Shown: in pieces, positions 1 through 38,420 of the stretch
How positions within the stretch are numbered: position 1 is the stretch's first letter
Layout of the letters: every line of letters starts with the position of its first letter
Assembly (NCBI GenBank): GCA_937863685.1
Contig: CALMGM010000005.1
Coordinates: forward strand, 372,001-436,000
Direction of reading: 5' to 3'
Origin: an uncultured bacterium
Lineage (GTDB): Bacteria; Edwardsbacteria; AC1; EtOH8
DNA: 64,000 nucleotides
The notes under the pieces: generated by a model
Told to the model about the DNA's origin: nothing
Databases searched by the model: none
What the model saw: only the letters and a program-made list of their open reading frames with translations
Position numbers and translations under genes: made by a program

Positions 1-317
1 GCCCATCGGACGGGGGGCGACGACCCGTTTGACAATGCCCTCGGTTGACAGGTTTATGGCTATGATCGTATCCTGGCATTCTACATATATCCGGTTGGCC
101 GCAGAACTGGCGGCTATCTGTCCCTGCCCGGTCTTGCCGGTCTCGATATAGTTTTGCCATACTGCATCGGAGTCGCTTATCTGGTATGCCGATAGCCCGG
201 TCAGCCAGTTCGAATGCGTGACATAGGCCTTCCCTATCCCGGGCAGATAGGCCATATCGGATGCCGCACTTATGGGCAAGGTTACCTTTTTTATCACCCG
301 ATAGTTCATGGGAGGCA
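1..317. repeat. Near-identical duplicate, copy 1
   Basis: About 317 bases match 1244-1560 with only a few substitutions (for example TATGGG against TACCGG near 271-276). It codes for the start of the propeller in two adjacent lipoprotein genes. Identity breaks sharply at about 318, beyond which the PEGA parts of the two genes are clearly diverged. The left end is cut by the window. Confidence 0.9.
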
Positions 318-31063: not shown

Positions 31064-32515
31064 TCACCTTACTATTATTATCTTCCCGTTGGTCGCCTGC
31101 CCCTGGGATTCAAGTCTGACCAGATACACTCCGCTGGCCACTTTGCGATTGCCGGCATCCCGCCCGTCCCAATGTAAACTGTAAACTCCTGAACCTTTGA
31201 ACTCGTTTGCCAGCATCCGCACTTCCTGCCCCAGCAGATTATATATTTTTATGGTTGCATGGCCGCCTTGCGGCAGCTGGTAGCTTATCTTATTGCCCGC
31301 CACTCTCAACGTTAAACTGGCAACTTTAAATCCTGTCGGTTCCAAATGTGAGTCAGAAACCCCGGTGGTGCTGGTGTTGTAGAGAATCACAAGACCATTG
31401 GAACCATCAGCCAAAGCAATGTCCGGCTTATCATCGCCGTTGATGTCGCCTACCGCTAAACCCTGAGGTTTGTAGTATGAGGGATCCGGAGTGGTGGTTG
31501 TATCATATGGCATCAACAATCCCAAATCATCCTGTTGATAAAGGCTTAACGCTTCCCAGCCATTATTTCCGACAGCAATGTCATTACGGCCATCCTGGTC
31601 AAAATCTGCCATCTCTACCGGTATCGGGCATTGATAGCAGCTATATAAACAGGGTGGCGTCTGTAATAAACCAAGCGTATCTTGCAGCCAAACCGCTATT
31701 TGGGCATCGGGCATATTCCCGTAAATAGTGGCCACCACATCCTTTTTTCCGTCGTTATTTACATCACCTACCGCCAAACCACTGGTACTGGTATCGCCCA
31801 GATCATAAAAAACTGGCAATTGGAGGCTCCCTGAGGTGTCCTGAAGAAAAATCGAAATATTTTCATTGTATCCTTGTCCTCGCATGAAAACAATATCATC
31901 CAGCCCGTCACCATTTACATCCCCGGCACTTATTTCGTCGTAGCCCCCGGCATTGATTGCATAGCTCTGGCTTTGGCTGAAATCACCGTACGGTTGTTGA
32001 CAGAAGACGCGAATATAATCTGAATTCCAGTGGCAGACTACGATATCAGTCAGCCCATCGTGGTTAAAGTCGCCTGTTTTCACTCCATCAACATCGCTGC
32101 CTGAATAGTAGTTGCCAACATTCTGTAAAAGACCCGTTGAATCCTGCATAAAAATGGCGATCGAATCGGCGGTGCCGACGACGACATCGCACATAGCATC
32201 GCCGTTTAAATCCGCAATGTCGATTGAGGAGATGTTGCAGCCATCATATCTCACCGGAGCATTCAATCCGCCGCCAGCCGTTTGTGTGAACACGAATAAA
32301 TTATAGACGTTCATGGTATCGAAATGGGACGAGGCTCCGATTACCACATCATTACGTCCGTCATTGTTGACATCTCCGATTGCTACAACTTCGGGCGGTC
32401 CATCTATAGGTATGGCCACATACGGGGCAAAGGAGATCACGCCGGCGTTGGTAGGCAACGACAAAAAAGCGCAAAATAGTATCGTGCTCAAGATATAGAT
32501 TTTTTTCATGGCCAC
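31064..32515 (-). CDS. Secreted FG-GAP/VCBS repeat protein with sorting domain
   Basis: A 483-aa protein: signal peptide (1-24), about seven FG-GAP/VCBS-like repeats each with a calcium-type loop (VAIGDVNNDGRNDVVIG, IADLNGDAMCDVVVG, SAGDVNGDGLDDIVF, VGDVNNDGKKDVVA, MADFDQDGRNDIAVG, VGDINGDDKPDIALA), then a C-terminal type IX sorting domain (about 400-483; [39 protein letters not shown]). The repeats fold into a calcium-binding propeller in known families. It shares its sorting domain and its leader dyads with the next two genes downstream. Likely exported and surface-bound; partner unknown. GGAGGTG precedes the ATG. Confidence 0.88.
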   Translation of the reverse strand: MAMKKIYILSTILFCAFLSLPTNAGVISFAPYVAIPIDGPPEVVAIGDVNNDGRNDVVIGASSHFDTMNVYNLFVFTQTAGGGLNAPVRYDGCNISSIDIADLNGDAMCDVVVGTADSIAIFMQDSTGLLQNVGNYYSGSDVDGVKTGDFNHDGLTDIVVCHWNSDYIRVFCQQPYGDFSQSQSYAINAGGYDEISAGDVNGDGLDDIVFMRGQGYNENISIFLQDTSGSLQLPVFYDLGDTSTSGLAVGDVNNDGKKDVVATIYGNMPDAQIAVWLQDTLGLLQTPPCLYSCYQCPIPVEMADFDQDGRNDIAVGNNGWEALSLYQQDDLGLLMPYDTTTTPDPSYYKPQGLAVGDINGDDKPDIALADGSNGLVILYNTSTTGVSDSHLEPTGFKVASLTLRVAGNKISYQLPQGGHATIKIYNLLGQEVRMLANEFKGSGVYSLHWDGRDAGNRKVASGVYLVRLESQGQATNGKIIIVR

Positions 32516-32530
32516 ACCTCCGTTATTTGC

Positions 32531-32550
32531 CGTTCGAACTGTTTCAAACC
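32531..32550. promoter_or_regulatory. Tandem dyads in the leader of the FG-GAP gene
   Basis: Two adjacent 10-base dyads, CGTTCGAACT and GTTTCAAACC, about 9 bases upstream of the ribosome site. Similar dyads precede the next two sorted-protein genes (33833-33852 and 35139-35158). They may be an operator, an RNA hairpin, or a remnant of duplication. Confidence 0.4.
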
Positions 32551-32561
32551 GCTAAAATATC

Positions 32562-33809
32562 TTACTGTACCACCAACATTTTAGCCGTGGTCGATTGTGT
32601 GCCGACCTCCAACCGTACCAGATACACTCCGCTGGCCACTCTGCGAGAGCCTGCATCCCGGCCATTCCACTGTAAATTATAAACTCCGGAACTTTTAAAC
32701 TCATTTGTCAGTGTCCGCACTTCCTGCCCCAGCAGATTAAATACCTTTATGGATGCCTGACCGCTCTGCGGGAGAGAATACTCAACAGTATTTCCGTATA
32801 CCCGTAATTTTAAATTCTGAATTTTTAAATTTGCATTTTGCAGTGGGTCGCCAGCTATCCCCGCCGGGCCATAGCCTTCATAGATCCTCAAACCATAATC
32901 ATTATCCGCCATATAAACATAACTGCCGGAAACGGCCAGGCCATAGGAATAACCCGGGGTATCATAGTAGCCTATTTCGGTAGGGCTGGACGGATCGCTG
33001 ATATTTAATATCCGCAGGCCTTCGCTGGCATCGGCTACAAAAGCTTTGGTGCCGGCCACCGCCACGGCCCGAGCGCCTCCCGGTGTGTCATAAAAGCCTG
33101 TTTCGGTGGGGTTGGCCGGATCGCTGACATCTACTATCCGCAGGCCGGAGTTCCAATCTGCCACATAGGCGTAGTTGCCGGATACAACCACATTTTGAGC
33201 AGAACCCGGCGTATCATAGAAGCCCGTTTCGGAAGGCGAGGCTGGCGCGCTGATGTTGACTATCCGCAGACCGGAGTCGCCATCCGCCACATAGGCATAG
33301 CTGCCGGATACTGCCACGCCTTGAGCAGATCCCGGCGTATCATAGTAGCCGGCTTCGAAAGGTACACCCGGATTGTTGATGTTTATTATCCGAAGGCCGG
33401 AATCACCATCTGCCACACAGGCATAATTTCCGGTTAAAACCACGCTCCAAGCTTCTCCCGGAGTGTCGTAAAAGCCCGTTTCCGTGGGGCTGGACGGGGT
33501 GCTGATGTTTATTATCCGTAACCCGGAAGATAGATCTGCCACATAGGCATAGACTCCCGATACCGCAACGCCCCAAGCTTGTCCCGGTGTGATGCAAAAG
33601 CCTGCTTCGGCGGGGTTGGCCGGATTACTGGTGTTGATGATCCTTAGGCCAAAAATAGTATTGGCCACATACGCATAACTATCGGAAACCGCCACACTAA
33701 CGGCACTTCCCATCACATAGCAACCGATCGTCCGCACATTTGAACTGTCTTGGCCAAAGGACTGCGCTGCAAAACATAGTGCAACCGCAAGAAGAATTTT
33801 TACCTTCAT
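32562..33809 (-). CDS. Secreted LVIVD-repeat propeller with sorting domain
   Basis: A 415-aa protein: signal peptide (1-19), six LVIVD-type repeats of about 43 residues (pattern [16 protein letters not shown] then P-E-GFYDTPG), then a linker and a C-terminal type IX sorting domain ([37 protein letters not shown]). Family knowledge: LVIVD repeats form beta-propellers in bacterial and archaeal surface proteins, and no enzyme is known. The linker [16 protein letters not shown] is encoded by an AT-rich segment that is nearly identical in the next paralogue. GGAGGTG precedes the ATG. Exported surface protein; ligand unknown. Confidence 0.88.
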
Positions 33810-33832
33810 GGTAGCACCTCCGTTTATTAATT

Positions 33833-33852
33833 GTTTGAAAACTATTTCAAAC
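33833..33852. promoter_or_regulatory. Inverted repeat in the leader of the LVIVD gene
   Basis: Perfect 8-bp arms GTTTGAAA / TTTCAAAC with a 4-base loop, followed by GTTCAAAT, upstream of the ribosome site of 32562-33809. It resembles the dyads at 32531 and 35139. Confidence 0.4.
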
Positions 33853-33863
33853 GTTCAAATATT

Positions 33864-35117
33864 TTACCTGACTATTACCATACTCCCGGTGGCCGTCTGT
33901 CCCTGAGATTCAAGCCTGACCAGATACACCCCGCTGACCACCTTGCGGTTGCCGGCATCCCGGCCGTTCCACGGCAAACTGTAAACCCCTGCACTTTTGA
34001 ACTCGTTTGCCAGCGTCCTTACCTCCTGCCCCAGCAGATTATAAACTTTTATAGAAGCAATCCCGCTCTGCGGAAGAGAATACTCAACAGTATTTCCGTA
34101 AACCCGTAATTTTAAATTCTGAATTTTTAAATTTGCATTTTGCATTGGGTCGCCAGTCACTCCCGCCGGTCCGTAGCCCTGTAGGATCCTGAGCCCATAG
34201 CTGGCATCGGCCACATATATCAGGCTTTCGCGCACCGCCACGCCATTTGACCAGCCGGGCGTATTGTAGTATCCCACCGTGTCGGGAGCGGCCGGATTGC
34301 TGATGTTGATGACCCGCAAACCCGCGGTCCGCGCAGCCACAAAGGCGAACTTGCCATCCACCGCCACATCCTCCGCCTCCGCCGAAGTGGCCGAGAATCC
34401 GGCCTCTGCCGGGCCGGCCAGATTGCTGATGTCGATTATCTGCAGGCCCATCAGGTCCGACAGGTAGGCATGACTGCCGTCTATTTTTATGCCGGTGGCA
34501 TAGACCGGAGTGGCGCATTCGCCAACCTGGGTTATGTTGGCCGTATCGCTGATATCCATGATGCGCAGGCGCGAAGACGTTCCGGCATTGGCCAGATATG
34601 CATAATCGCCGGATACCGCCAGGTCCTCGAGATAGCCGGGCGTGACAAAGGATCCGGCCTGGGTCGGTCCGGCCGGATCGCTGATATTGATTATCGCCAG
34701 CCCGGAATCATAATCCGCAATATACGCATAATCCCCCGATACCACCACTGCCCGGGCGTCGCCCGGCGTGTTAAAGGAACCTGCCGAATCGGGATTGGTC
34801 GGGTCGCTGATGTTGATTATCATCAGGCCGGCAGCCCCGTCCGCCACATAAGCATAGCTATCCGAAACCGCCACGCCCCGAGCGGTCCCCGGCGTATCAA
34901 AAAAGCCCACTTCGGCAGGGTTGTTTGGATCGCTAATATTTATCACCCGCAGTCCGGAATCGCCGTCTGCCACATAGGCATAATTATCCGCTACGACTAC
35001 GTAATAGGCATTGCCAGGAGTGTTATAAACGCCCACCGTCCGCATGTTGGAACTGTCCTGGGCCAAAGCCAGACCGCCCAAAAACATCGCAGCAGTAAGA
35101 AGAATTTTTACCTTCAT
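33864..35117 (-). CDS. Secreted LVIVD-repeat propeller with sorting domain, paralogue
   Basis: A 417-aa paralogue of 32562-33809: signal peptide (1-19), LVIVD repeats ([50 protein letters not shown]), the same AT-encoded linker, and a C-terminal sorting domain ([38 protein letters not shown]). GGAGGTA stands before the ATG and two dyads stand upstream. The three genes 31064-35117 share one sorting-domain type and probably arose by duplication followed by swapping of the propeller body. Surface protein; ligand unknown. Confidence 0.88.
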   Translation of the reverse strand: MKVKILLTAAMFLGGLALAQDSSNMRTVGVYNTPGNAYYVVVADNYAYVADGDSGLRVINISDPNNPAEVGFFDTPGTARGVAVSDSYAYVADGAAGLMIINISDPTNPDSAGSFNTPGDARAVVVSGDYAYIADYDSGLAIINISDPAGPTQAGSFVTPGYLEDLAVSGDYAYLANAGTSSRLRIMDISDTANITQVGECATPVYATGIKIDGSHAYLSDLMGLQIIDISNLAGPAEAGFSATSAEAEDVAVDGKFAFVAARTAGLRVINISNPAAPDTVGYYNTPGWSNGVAVRESLIYVADASYGLRILQGYGPAGVTGDPMQNANLKIQNLKLRVYGNTVEYSLPQSGIASIKVYNLLGQEVRTLANEFKSAGVYSLPWNGRDAGNRKVVSGVYLVRLESQGQTATGSMVIVR

Positions 35118-36803: not shown

Positions 36804-36839
36804 CTAAAAGGGCGCCCTGATAAACAGGGCGCCCTTTAG
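36804..36839 (-). terminator. Strong terminator after the double-glycine peptide gene
   Basis: Arms AAAGGGCGCCCTG / CAGGGCGCCCTTT pair perfectly over 13 bp around a 5-base loop, with TTTTAG following on the minus strand. It isolates the peptide gene from gcvPB. Confidence 0.85.
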
Positions 36840-36847
36840 TAATTTAT

Positions 36848-37009
36848 TTATGCTGGCGGGTTAACCGGTGGTTTGTAGACATCATTGGGCTGAACCGGAG
36901 GCTTGTATACCTGATCCTGCTCCATGTTCATGTATTGGTATTCATTACCATAGCCCATATCATCGCCGCCCATAACACTGGTCAGTTCATTCTTGCTCAG
37001 TATTTTCAT
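36848..37009 (-). CDS. 53-aa peptide precursor with double-glycine leader
   Basis: A short gene of 54 codons including the stop. The start is certain: AAAGGAGGTGA lies 9 bases before the ATG. Residues 1-15 (MKILSKNELTSVMGG) fit the classical double-glycine leader consensus LSxxELxxIxGG of exported bacteriocins and other peptides cleaved by C39 peptidase transporters. The predicted 38-residue mature part begins DDMGYGNEYQYMN and holds two copies of VYKPPV in a Pro-rich tail. It has no Cys, so disulphide or lanthionine rings are excluded. The promoter upstream is a perfect consensus and a strong terminator follows, so it is probably abundantly made as a single-gene unit. No C39 transporter or modifying enzyme is in the window. 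Bacteriocin, signal peptide or exported adhesive peptide are all possible. Confidence 0.8.
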   Translation of the reverse strand: MKILSKNELTSVMGGDDMGYGNEYQYMNMEQDQVYKPPVQPNDVYKPPVNPPA

Positions 37010-37113
37010 TTACTATTTCACCTCCTTTCATTACTTTCAATCTTTAACGCCATATGTTTTTATGACAGTTTGCCCATAATTGCAATTGTTTCATGTCATT
37101 TTATTTATAGCTA

Positions 37114-37142
37114 ATTATATATGTTATAACTATTATTGTCAA
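37114..37142 (-). promoter_or_regulatory. Perfect-consensus sigma-70 promoter of the peptide gene
   Basis: Minus-strand TTGACA (37137-37142), exactly 17 bases, TATAAT (37114-37119). The predicted start is near 37107, giving a leader of about 97 bases. Confidence 0.85.
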
Positions 37143-37169: not shown

Positions 37170-37196
37170 AGAGCGCCCTATTGACCAGGGCGCTCT
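37170..37196 (-). terminator. Terminator after the 85-aa protein gene
   Basis: Perfect 10-bp stem AGAGCGCCCT / AGGGCGCTCT with a 7-base loop, followed on the minus strand by TTTATTT. It separates the TPR/85-aa genes from the peptide gene's promoter. Confidence 0.85.
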
Positions 37197-37214: not shown

Positions 37215-37472
37215 TTAATCTGGCAATACCGGTGCATCGGGATCATATACTTTTACGATTCCCGGGTCAACCGCTTTTATAGCGCTTTCGGCTTCCGCAA
37301 AACTGTCATATGTACCGAAAGTCCCAGCAATAGCAAATTCGTCTATAGCTTTACCCGAAGTATAGTACCAAATACTTGCTTCGTGTTGATTTTTTGAGTT
37401 CAAGTATGCTTGTTCAGTTGTCGGGTGAACAATATACTTTTTGCCGGCTAGTCTAATACCAATATAGATCAT
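37215..37472 (-). CDS. Small protein of unknown function (85 aa)
   Basis: An 85-aa protein beginning MIYIGIRLAGKKYIVHPTTEQ with a mixed alpha/beta composition and an acidic, Pro-containing end (VYDPDAPVLPD). GGGAGGTGA lies ahead of the ATG. It starts 6 bases after the stop of the TPR gene, so the two form an operon that ends at the terminator 37170-37196. No signal peptide or double-glycine leader is visible. The family is not recognised. Low GC compared with the surroundings, as for its neighbours. Confidence 0.75.
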   Translation of the reverse strand: MIYIGIRLAGKKYIVHPTTEQAYLNSKNQHEASIWYYTSGKAIDEFAIAGTFGTYDSFAEAESAIKAVDPGIVKVYDPDAPVLPD

Positions 37473-37478
37473 GTGGTC

Positions 37479-38420
37479 TCACCTCCCTTCATTTGAATTG
37501 ATCTCATTTAGGACTCTTTGGGCTTCTTGCTTTATTCCTTCAATTTTTATATCCATTGATAAAACTCTCTCAATACAAATTTTAGCCATGCTTTTTTCAT
37601 TAAGTTTATTATATGCATCACTTAAATTCAACAAGGACACAGCCATTATATAAATCATACCGCATTTTTCAGCAAGCTTAACACTTTGTTTAAAATATTC
37701 TTTTGCACTAATAAATTTATTTTCTTCAAAATCTATTAAGCCCATGTTACAGAGCAAATGTGCCATTGCGTCTTGAGCACCAGTCTCTTTAATAAGAAAA
37801 TATGCTCTATTATAATATTCGGTTGCTTTGTCTTTATTCCCAATTTTACGGTAAATATTTCCATATTCCTGGTAAGCATGGGATAATCTTACTTTATTAC
37901 TTCCTTTTTGATAAAATTCTAGTAATTGCCCAAAGACACTCAACGCTTCAGTGTATTTTTTTTCCAAGCGATAATTACTTGCCATATATTCTAAAACCAG
38001 GTGTTTGCCATGTTCATTGTTTAAATTATCATAAATTTTCAAGGCTTTGTTGTATAAATCCAATGCCTCGTTATATTTTTCCTTGAGTTGTAAAATCTTT
38101 CCCATGTGTCTGTAACAAGTTGCGACTTTTTCCAAATTATTTATTTTAGTGATCTTTAATGCGGCTGTAAAATTTCTCTCAGCTTCATCATATTTTCCTT
38201 TAGTTGTTTGTACAATACCAATGGCAATTAATGCGTCTACCTCTTTTTTTTCATTCGTCACTTTTTGATTAATACTTCTCATAAATTTAAAATCAAACAG
38301 TGCCTTGTCGTACTTGCCTATCAACCTATGCACCTCGCCGCGCTTCTCGTAAACATCGGAAACATGGCCGTGCGGGTTCTGGTAGAATTTTTCCCAAAAT
38401 GCTTTTCTGGCAGTGGTCAT
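37479..38420 (-). CDS. TPR-repeat protein
   Basis: A 313-aa protein made almost wholly of about seven TPRs of the 40-residue type (KVATCYRHMGKILQLKEKYNEALDLYNKALKIYD; HAYQEYGNIYRKIGNKDKATEYYNRAYFLIKETG; AVSLLNLSDAYNKLNEKSMAKICIERVL). Such domains bind peptides or proteins. It has no DNA-binding domain, membrane segment or signal. Its DNA is markedly AT-rich compared with the flanking genes. It is coupled to an 85-aa gene and lies next to the double-glycine peptide unit, so a sensing or binding role for a peptide is thinkable but unsupported. The ribosome site is weak, and a copy of the C-rich/G-rich repeat lies just upstream, so the 5' end may have been altered. Confidence 0.8.
   Translation of the reverse strand: MTTARKAFWEKFYQNPHGHVSDVYEKRGEVHRLIGKYDKALFDFKFMRSINQKVTNEKKEVDALIAIGIVQTTKGKYDEAERNFTAALKITKINNLEKVATCYRHMGKILQLKEKYNEALDLYNKALKIYDNLNNEHGKHLVLEYMASNYRLEKKYTEALSVFGQLLEFYQKGSNKVRLSHAYQEYGNIYRKIGNKDKATEYYNRAYFLIKETGAQDAMAHLLCNMGLIDFEENKFISAKEYFKQSVKLAEKCGMIYIMAVSLLNLSDAYNKLNEKSMAKICIERVLSMDIKIEGIKQEAQRVLNEINSNEGR

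Follow-up and report, generated by a model that had tools for sequence, protein, structure and literature searches.

The peptide gene and its flanking elements

What is the product of a 53-codon gene that carries an exporter-type leader behind a consensus promoter and lies between two terminators? The gene is found in a 64-kb stretch of DNA, hereafter the window, from a genome of 2.72 Mb in 14 contigs (G000). The genome belongs to Edwardsbacteria, a candidate phylum of which, to our knowledge, no member has been cultured. All features of the window that are given with coordinates in this section are on the minus strand unless stated otherwise.

The gene occupies positions 36848-37009 and encodes the leader MKILSKNELTSVMGG followed by the mature part DDMGYGNEYQYMNMEQDQVYKPPVQPNDVYKPPVNPPA. 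The 15-residue leader (36965-37009; profile match E=3.3e-6) is predicted to be cleaved after its Gly-Gly by a C39 peptidase. It passes the NCBIfam bacteriocin leader model TIGR01847 with 16.6 bits against a cut-off of 15.7; the rSAM-RiPP leader model TIGR04149 gives a weak match, below its cut-off. The mature part (36851-36964) comprises 38 residues with a charge of -4 and a GRAVY of -1.34, is free of Cys, and contains in its C-terminal part two copies of VYKPPV (36893-36910 and 36863-36880), the second of which differs from the first in three codons, all synonymously. A Shine-Dalgarno sequence, AAAGGAGGTGA, is located at 37018-37028, and a sigma-70 promoter, TTGACA-17-TATAAT, which matches the consensus at 12 of 12 positions, is located at 37142-37114. 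Judged from the position of the -10 element, the 5' UTR would span about 97 nt (37010-37107). It has no significant secondary structure (fold z -0.15), and an Rfam search of the window returned no match; a structured 5' UTR or riboswitch is ruled out by these two results.

Downstream, a hairpin with a 13-bp stem (36807-36837; no strand assigned, matched on the plus strand, with the minus-strand tail TTTTAGTTAT read directly) lies between the peptide gene and its neighbor gcvPB and is probably bidirectional. Upstream, an 11-bp stem (37170-37196) forms the terminator of an operon that encodes an 85-residue protein without a Pfam match (37215-37472) and a 313-residue TPR protein (TPR_12; 37479-38420), the latter about 0.5 kb from the peptide gene; this terminator splits the operon from the peptide promoter. 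No candidate immunity gene was found beside the peptide gene, which is bounded by terminators on both sides. The initial annotation had described a double-glycine leader, a near-perfect ribosome site, a TTGACA-17-TATAAT promoter, flanking terminators (here, terminator-like stems) and a mature part with two VYKPPV copies and no Cys, and each of these elements is confirmed.

Exactly one open reading frame of the window matches a leader regular expression. Dinucleotide shuffles of the window (n=60) contained on average 0.017 such frames, and none when a ribosome site was required.

A single C39 exporter in the genome

The initial annotation proposed that a C39-peptidase ABC exporter be sought elsewhere in the genome. 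A complete one, the single full PCAT exporter in G000, is located about 95 kb from the peptide gene (G000:C5:311516-313705). It consists of 729 residues with C39 peptidase, ABC membrane and ATPase domains, and a gene for an HlyD-family adaptor starts at its stop codon, directly downstream. It resembles the ComA/PCAT1-type transporters, which have GG pheromones such as CSP and Blp: it aligns over its full length to PCAT1 (4ry2; residues 9-722) and to ComA (8hf4; residues 10-722), its C39 active-site residues Q, C, H and D align to those of PCAT1, and the leader of the window peptide matches TIGR01847. Unlike those systems, the one described here belongs to a Gram-negative envelope with HlyD, and no histidine kinase or response regulator adjoins the peptide gene in the window. 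Of the named relatives, Candidatus Edwardsbacteria DeMMO3_1, whose exporter is 96% identical, and UBP2 bacterium UBA2255 are the closest. Related PCAT exporters, 46-67% identical and accompanied by an HlyD adaptor, are present in Bacteroidota clusters (loci L018-L025 and L027).

A second C39 protein of G000 (G000:C5:249964; L002:1489-1968; 159 residues, membrane-anchored) was rejected as an exporter because it is devoid of an ABC domain and lies near pilus/secretion-like genes. Another genome, G006, has a further C39 match, in a short frame.

Sister peptides occur where the exporter occurs

Sister peptides and conservation of the leader in relatives were likewise suggested as checks, and both were found, in G000 itself as well as in three relatives, which are precisely the relatives with the exporter. 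G000 encodes at least seven GG peptides: the window peptide, three beside the exporter and three more that are scattered as solo units (C12:69961, C5:562050 and C5:177592). The three exporter-side peptides are encoded divergently from the exporter, start with MKELNRDxLL and are conserved in the sister species G003. The term "stand-alone" used in the initial annotation is apt for the gene, but the gene belongs to a dispersed repertoire.

Two profiles were used. The first was built from five G000 peptides only, which makes it a fair test of the relatives, and it finds sisters in G003, G004 and G007. The second, a leader profile, was built from 25 peptides taken in part from the genomes later scored, i.e., it was trained on positive genomes; it yields 28 matches at E<1e-4 (7 in G000, 4 in G003, 10 in G004 and 7 in G007). 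The leader family is present in exactly four of the ten Edwardsbacteria genomes, the same four that have the exporter. If three of the nine other genomes were drawn at random, they would be the three exporter carriers with a probability of 1/84. Across 117 genomes, the leader profile has a single further match with E<0.001; it falls in a 290-residue frame (E=8e-4) and is weak and implausible. When 40 other genomes were searched with the window peptide itself, no credible relative emerged.

With both an exporter and a conserved leader present, the proposal of a secreted double-glycine peptide is supported. Sequence comparison yields the reading frame, the leader family, the active-site residues of the exporter, the promoter class described below and the co-occurrence, and the window peptide is very probably a C39-exported peptide, which would be cleaved and released without modification.

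Several features of other loci should be mentioned. A large protein with Ser/Thr kinase, TPR, GAF and sigma54 activation regions (L065:1-4188; G000:C5) is encoded 2.9 kb from the C5:562050 peptide. Tandem arrays of GG-peptide genes with conserved leaders are found in G004 (L068:850-4312; C47) and G007 (L069:14531-15310; C178), two genomes of one genus. The C-terminal motifs of the two arrays match pairwise, and the arrays adjoin ABC-transporter genes and genes for small lipoproteins. Kinase and response-regulator genes are present in both array contigs, about 10 kb from the arrays.

Promoter class of the peptide genes

The 12/12 promoter of the peptide gene is the sole one in the window, which has one 11/12 site. 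The statement that promoters of this genome are otherwise imperfect is too strong, however: G000 has 51 perfect promoters, compared with 1 occurrence of a reversed control pattern, and the numbers are similar in its relatives. Edwardsbacteria genomes contain about 36-64 perfect TTGACA-16..18-TATAAT sites each, versus 0-2 for the reversed pattern.

In G000, the peptide gene class is tied to strong promoters, because all five independent peptide units have one (12/12 in four units and 11/12 in the fifth), whereas only 2 of 92 other genes scored have an 11/12 promoter and none has a 12/12 promoter. Peptide units of G003 have 12/12 and 11/12 promoters. By our own reading of the sequences, 12/12 and 11/12 promoters are also present at G004:C86 and G007:C144, respectively; such promoters are lacking from the tandem arrays in G004 and G007 and from three solo units (G004:C87, G007:C194 and G004:C19). 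The peptide promoters would be expected to drive high expression.

Mature parts of the peptides

The mature cores of 30 peptides from the four genomes have a median length of 24 residues, a median charge of -5 and a median GRAVY of -0.95; Cys is present in 4 of the 30. The C-terminal motifs GHFxGVDGL, KK(E/D)NPFEP, MPRRQPVWE and GAHSFHEI recur between genomes or genera, and the Tyr-rich ends of the exporter-side sisters are likewise shared between genomes. Within the shared C-terminal motifs changes are mostly synonymous, although it should be noted that these motifs were picked for their conservation. No such selection of motifs was involved in the comparison of whole exporter-side cores between G000 and G003, which gave pN/pS or dN/dS of about 0.14-0.24; by these ratios the exporter-side sisters are under purifying selection. 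In these genomes, GHFxGVDGL is confined to the cores of GG peptides and occurs twice in one G000 peptide.

VYKPPV was rejected as a genome-wide motif, as DNA patterns for YxPPV are about equally common in the control direction. The pattern is suggestive only in the tail of the 86-residue G003 ortholog of the neighboring 85-residue protein (L067:14237-14497), whose end, NIYQPPVPPSD, resembles the VYKPPV repeats.

Turnover of the solo units

At the syntenic locus of G003, both genes of the upstream operon are retained and the peptide gene is missing. The G003 copies of the two operon genes are, as judged from their sequences, under purifying selection (pN/pS 0.18 for the 85/86-residue protein and dN/dS of about 0.22 for the TPR protein). 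Conversely, the solo peptide C68:70425 of G003 sits in about 1 kb of DNA absent from G000. Solo units thus turn over between sister species. A mobile cassette with terminal repeats was considered and discarded: DNA similarity between loci is restricted mainly to the leader and ribosome-site region, and there are no shared ends.

The place of the peptide in G003 (L067:11985-14009; G003:C68) is taken by a DndB-family gene (PF14072) and a HEAT/DUF1186-like gene; the latter contains AYKPPV. A structural model of the 85-residue neighbor was too poor for use (pLDDT 55). Elsewhere in the window (31064-35117), three adjoining genes encode secreted repeat proteins that by eye are beta-propeller/FG-GAP-like and that resemble one another in the sorting-like domains at their C termini. 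Their arrangement is not that of G003, which suggests recombination.

Functional interpretation

The explanation that we favor combines export with a signaling role. The C39 domain of the PCAT exporter would recognize the 15-residue leader and remove it after Gly-Gly, and the 38-residue acidic core would leave the cell through the ABC transporter and the HlyD adaptor. Together with at least six others, the window peptide would make up a dispersed repertoire. It would be expressed from a consensus sigma-70 promoter, and its exported core would act as an intercellular signal. Taken jointly, export and a secreted signal are preferred tentatively to the other functions, as a real possibility that falls somewhat short of being probable. 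The preference has three reasons. Genera have conserved C-terminal motifs of 8-10 residues in common, which follow an acidic spacer that varies; the C-terminal module is doubled in two precursors, as it is in tandem pheromone precursors, which are documented within a single precursor for Rap/Phr (PMC11343458); and the cores have no toxin-like features. Several observations count against a signal. Neither a histidine kinase nor an importer is adjacent to the peptide gene in the window, a density-tuned signal would not need a strong promoter of constitutive type, and the window peptide is both without a credible relative in the 40 genomes and missing at the syntenic locus of G003.

Alternatively, the peptide may be a matrix or adhesive component. 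In that case a strong promoter would yield it in bulk, and after export by the PCAT it would become part of the cell surface or biofilm. A close precedent is EbfG1-4 of Synechococcus elongatus, several small GG-leader peptides of a Gram-negative bacterium that are processed and exported by the C39-peptidase ABC transporter PteB and strongly expressed in the biofilm state (PMC4997328). The mature start of EbfG1, TTYNPPSYPYPSYPK, is Tyr/Pro-rich (PMC4997328), as is VYKPPVQPNDVYKPPVNPPA here; several sister cores (C12 and the exporter-side peptides) are Tyr-rich, and the promoters belong to a high-expression class. The likeness to EbfG is one of composition and leader class, not of homology, and the Edwardsbacteria repertoire is larger, scattered and mostly acidic, with C-terminal motifs common to genera. 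Moreover, the VYKPPV repeats number just two, and other sisters, of 15-26 residues, are very acidic and not Tyr/Pro-rich, so that a matrix role leaves the family unexplained. We regard this role as conceivable, but rather unlikely.

PCAT together with HlyD is the export layout of class II microcins (colicin V type; CvaB/CvaA), which also have GG leaders. The exporter found here has this layout, the window leader passes TIGR01847, and presence of the solo units varies between sister species, all of which would suit a C39-exported toxin directed against related bacteria. The cores, however, are short, hydrophilic and acidic, unlike pore-forming class II peptides, and that of the window peptide is neither hydrophobic nor amphipathic. 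The neighbors of the window peptide, of the exporter and of the exporter-side sisters include no candidate immunity gene, the exporter lies outside the peptide operon, and the C-terminal motifs are conserved between genera. Core composition and the lack of an immunity gene led us to drop a bacteriocin as the first choice, and we consider it unlikely. Of the functions listed in the initial annotation (bacteriocin, peptide signal or secreted adhesive), the data thus disfavor the first, and a signal or a matrix peptide remains.

It is also unlikely, to a slightly greater degree, that the peptide is a RiPP precursor, the core of which an unlinked enzyme modifies ahead of export by the same transporter. 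Some of the Bacteroidota relatives of the exporter (L018-L025, L027) are clustered with LanB/LanC-like or grasp-type genes, so named by sequence reading, and several of these clusters carry candidate modifying enzymes and other precursors. In addition to the sub-threshold TIGR04149 match of the window leader, the sister at C5:562050 scores 25 bits with the CCRG-2 RiPP leader model, above its cut-off of 24. Against this, no modifying-enzyme gene was seen beside the exporter or the peptides in G000, G003, G004 or G007, and Cys residues are few.

Another proposal, which is one form of the signal model and overlaps with it, is that the peptide is re-imported and bound by the neighboring TPR protein as in RRNPP pairs. 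Rap-Phr and other RRNPP systems, described in Bacillota, likewise combine a small secreted precursor near a TPR protein with repeated C-terminal modules (PMC10075063, PMC11343458). TPR_12-type genes, or remnants of such genes, are found no more than 0.5 kb from six of the ten solo units (binomial P of 8e-6 to 1e-3 at assumed rates of 6-15%, in a post hoc test), the neighbor of the C12 sister passes Pfam RNPP_C (28.3 vs 26.5 bits), and the TPR proteins of the window (313 residues) and of C12 (362 residues) fit the receptor size of RRNPP_detector (PMC10075063). These points have to be set against the abundance of TPR genes, with 98-134 domain matches per genome, and the window TPR protein is not among the RNPP_C matches listed. 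Two of the six TPR-near units, both of G004 (L074:5850-6600, C87; L079:6050-7080, C86), sit inside broken TPR genes, one in the same and one in the opposite orientation; for this reason, insertion of peptide units into TPR genes is as good an explanation as pairing. In the window a terminator separates the TPR operon from the peptide, G003 has the TPR gene without the peptide, and the predicted export is by C39 rather than by Sec/PptAB. Finally, the TPR fold is generic: a model of the window protein (pLDDT 72) resembles the peptide-binding TPRs of LGN and kinesin light chain, its best PDB matches being LGN, with RapI at rank 38. We therefore consider such a pair doubtful, about as much so as a RiPP precursor. 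A broader proposal, that the solo units form a dispersed peptide language in which many single-gene GG units, each behind a consensus promoter, share one C39 exporter and end in type-specific C-terminal modules, some of them read by neighboring TPR proteins, seems improbable; if true, it would place an RRNPP-like or other peptide-signaling network in an uncultured Gram-negative candidate phylum.

That the frame is a chance ORF or a decayed gene without a product, as the lack of an ortholog in relatives might suggest, is very improbable given the combination of leader, ribosome site and perfect promoter (0 of 60 shuffles with a ribosome site), the existence of a sister family and an exporter, and hexapeptide repeat copies that differ at synonymous sites only.

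Significance

GG-peptide/PCAT systems are well known, including those of Gram-negative bacteria. What is new is the dispersed set of such peptides in a candidate phylum, with a leader family and a promoter class of their own and with C-terminal modules in common. A complete C39 export system accompanies about 4 to 11 peptides in each genome. Edwardsbacteria is mentioned in none of the papers listed by a search that was limited to open-access text. If the C-terminal modules, as we tentatively prefer, act as signals, peptide communication would extend beyond the phyla where it has been studied; if the products are matrix peptides, they would parallel EbfG of cyanobacteria.

Because of their small size and scattered locations, most of these peptide genes would probably escape routine annotation and cluster mining. 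With the leader profile and the promoter class, there is a handle for finding the remaining ones. Many of the perfect promoter sites look conserved between species, and the sites as a whole can be used directly as a catalogue of the phylum's strongest promoters.
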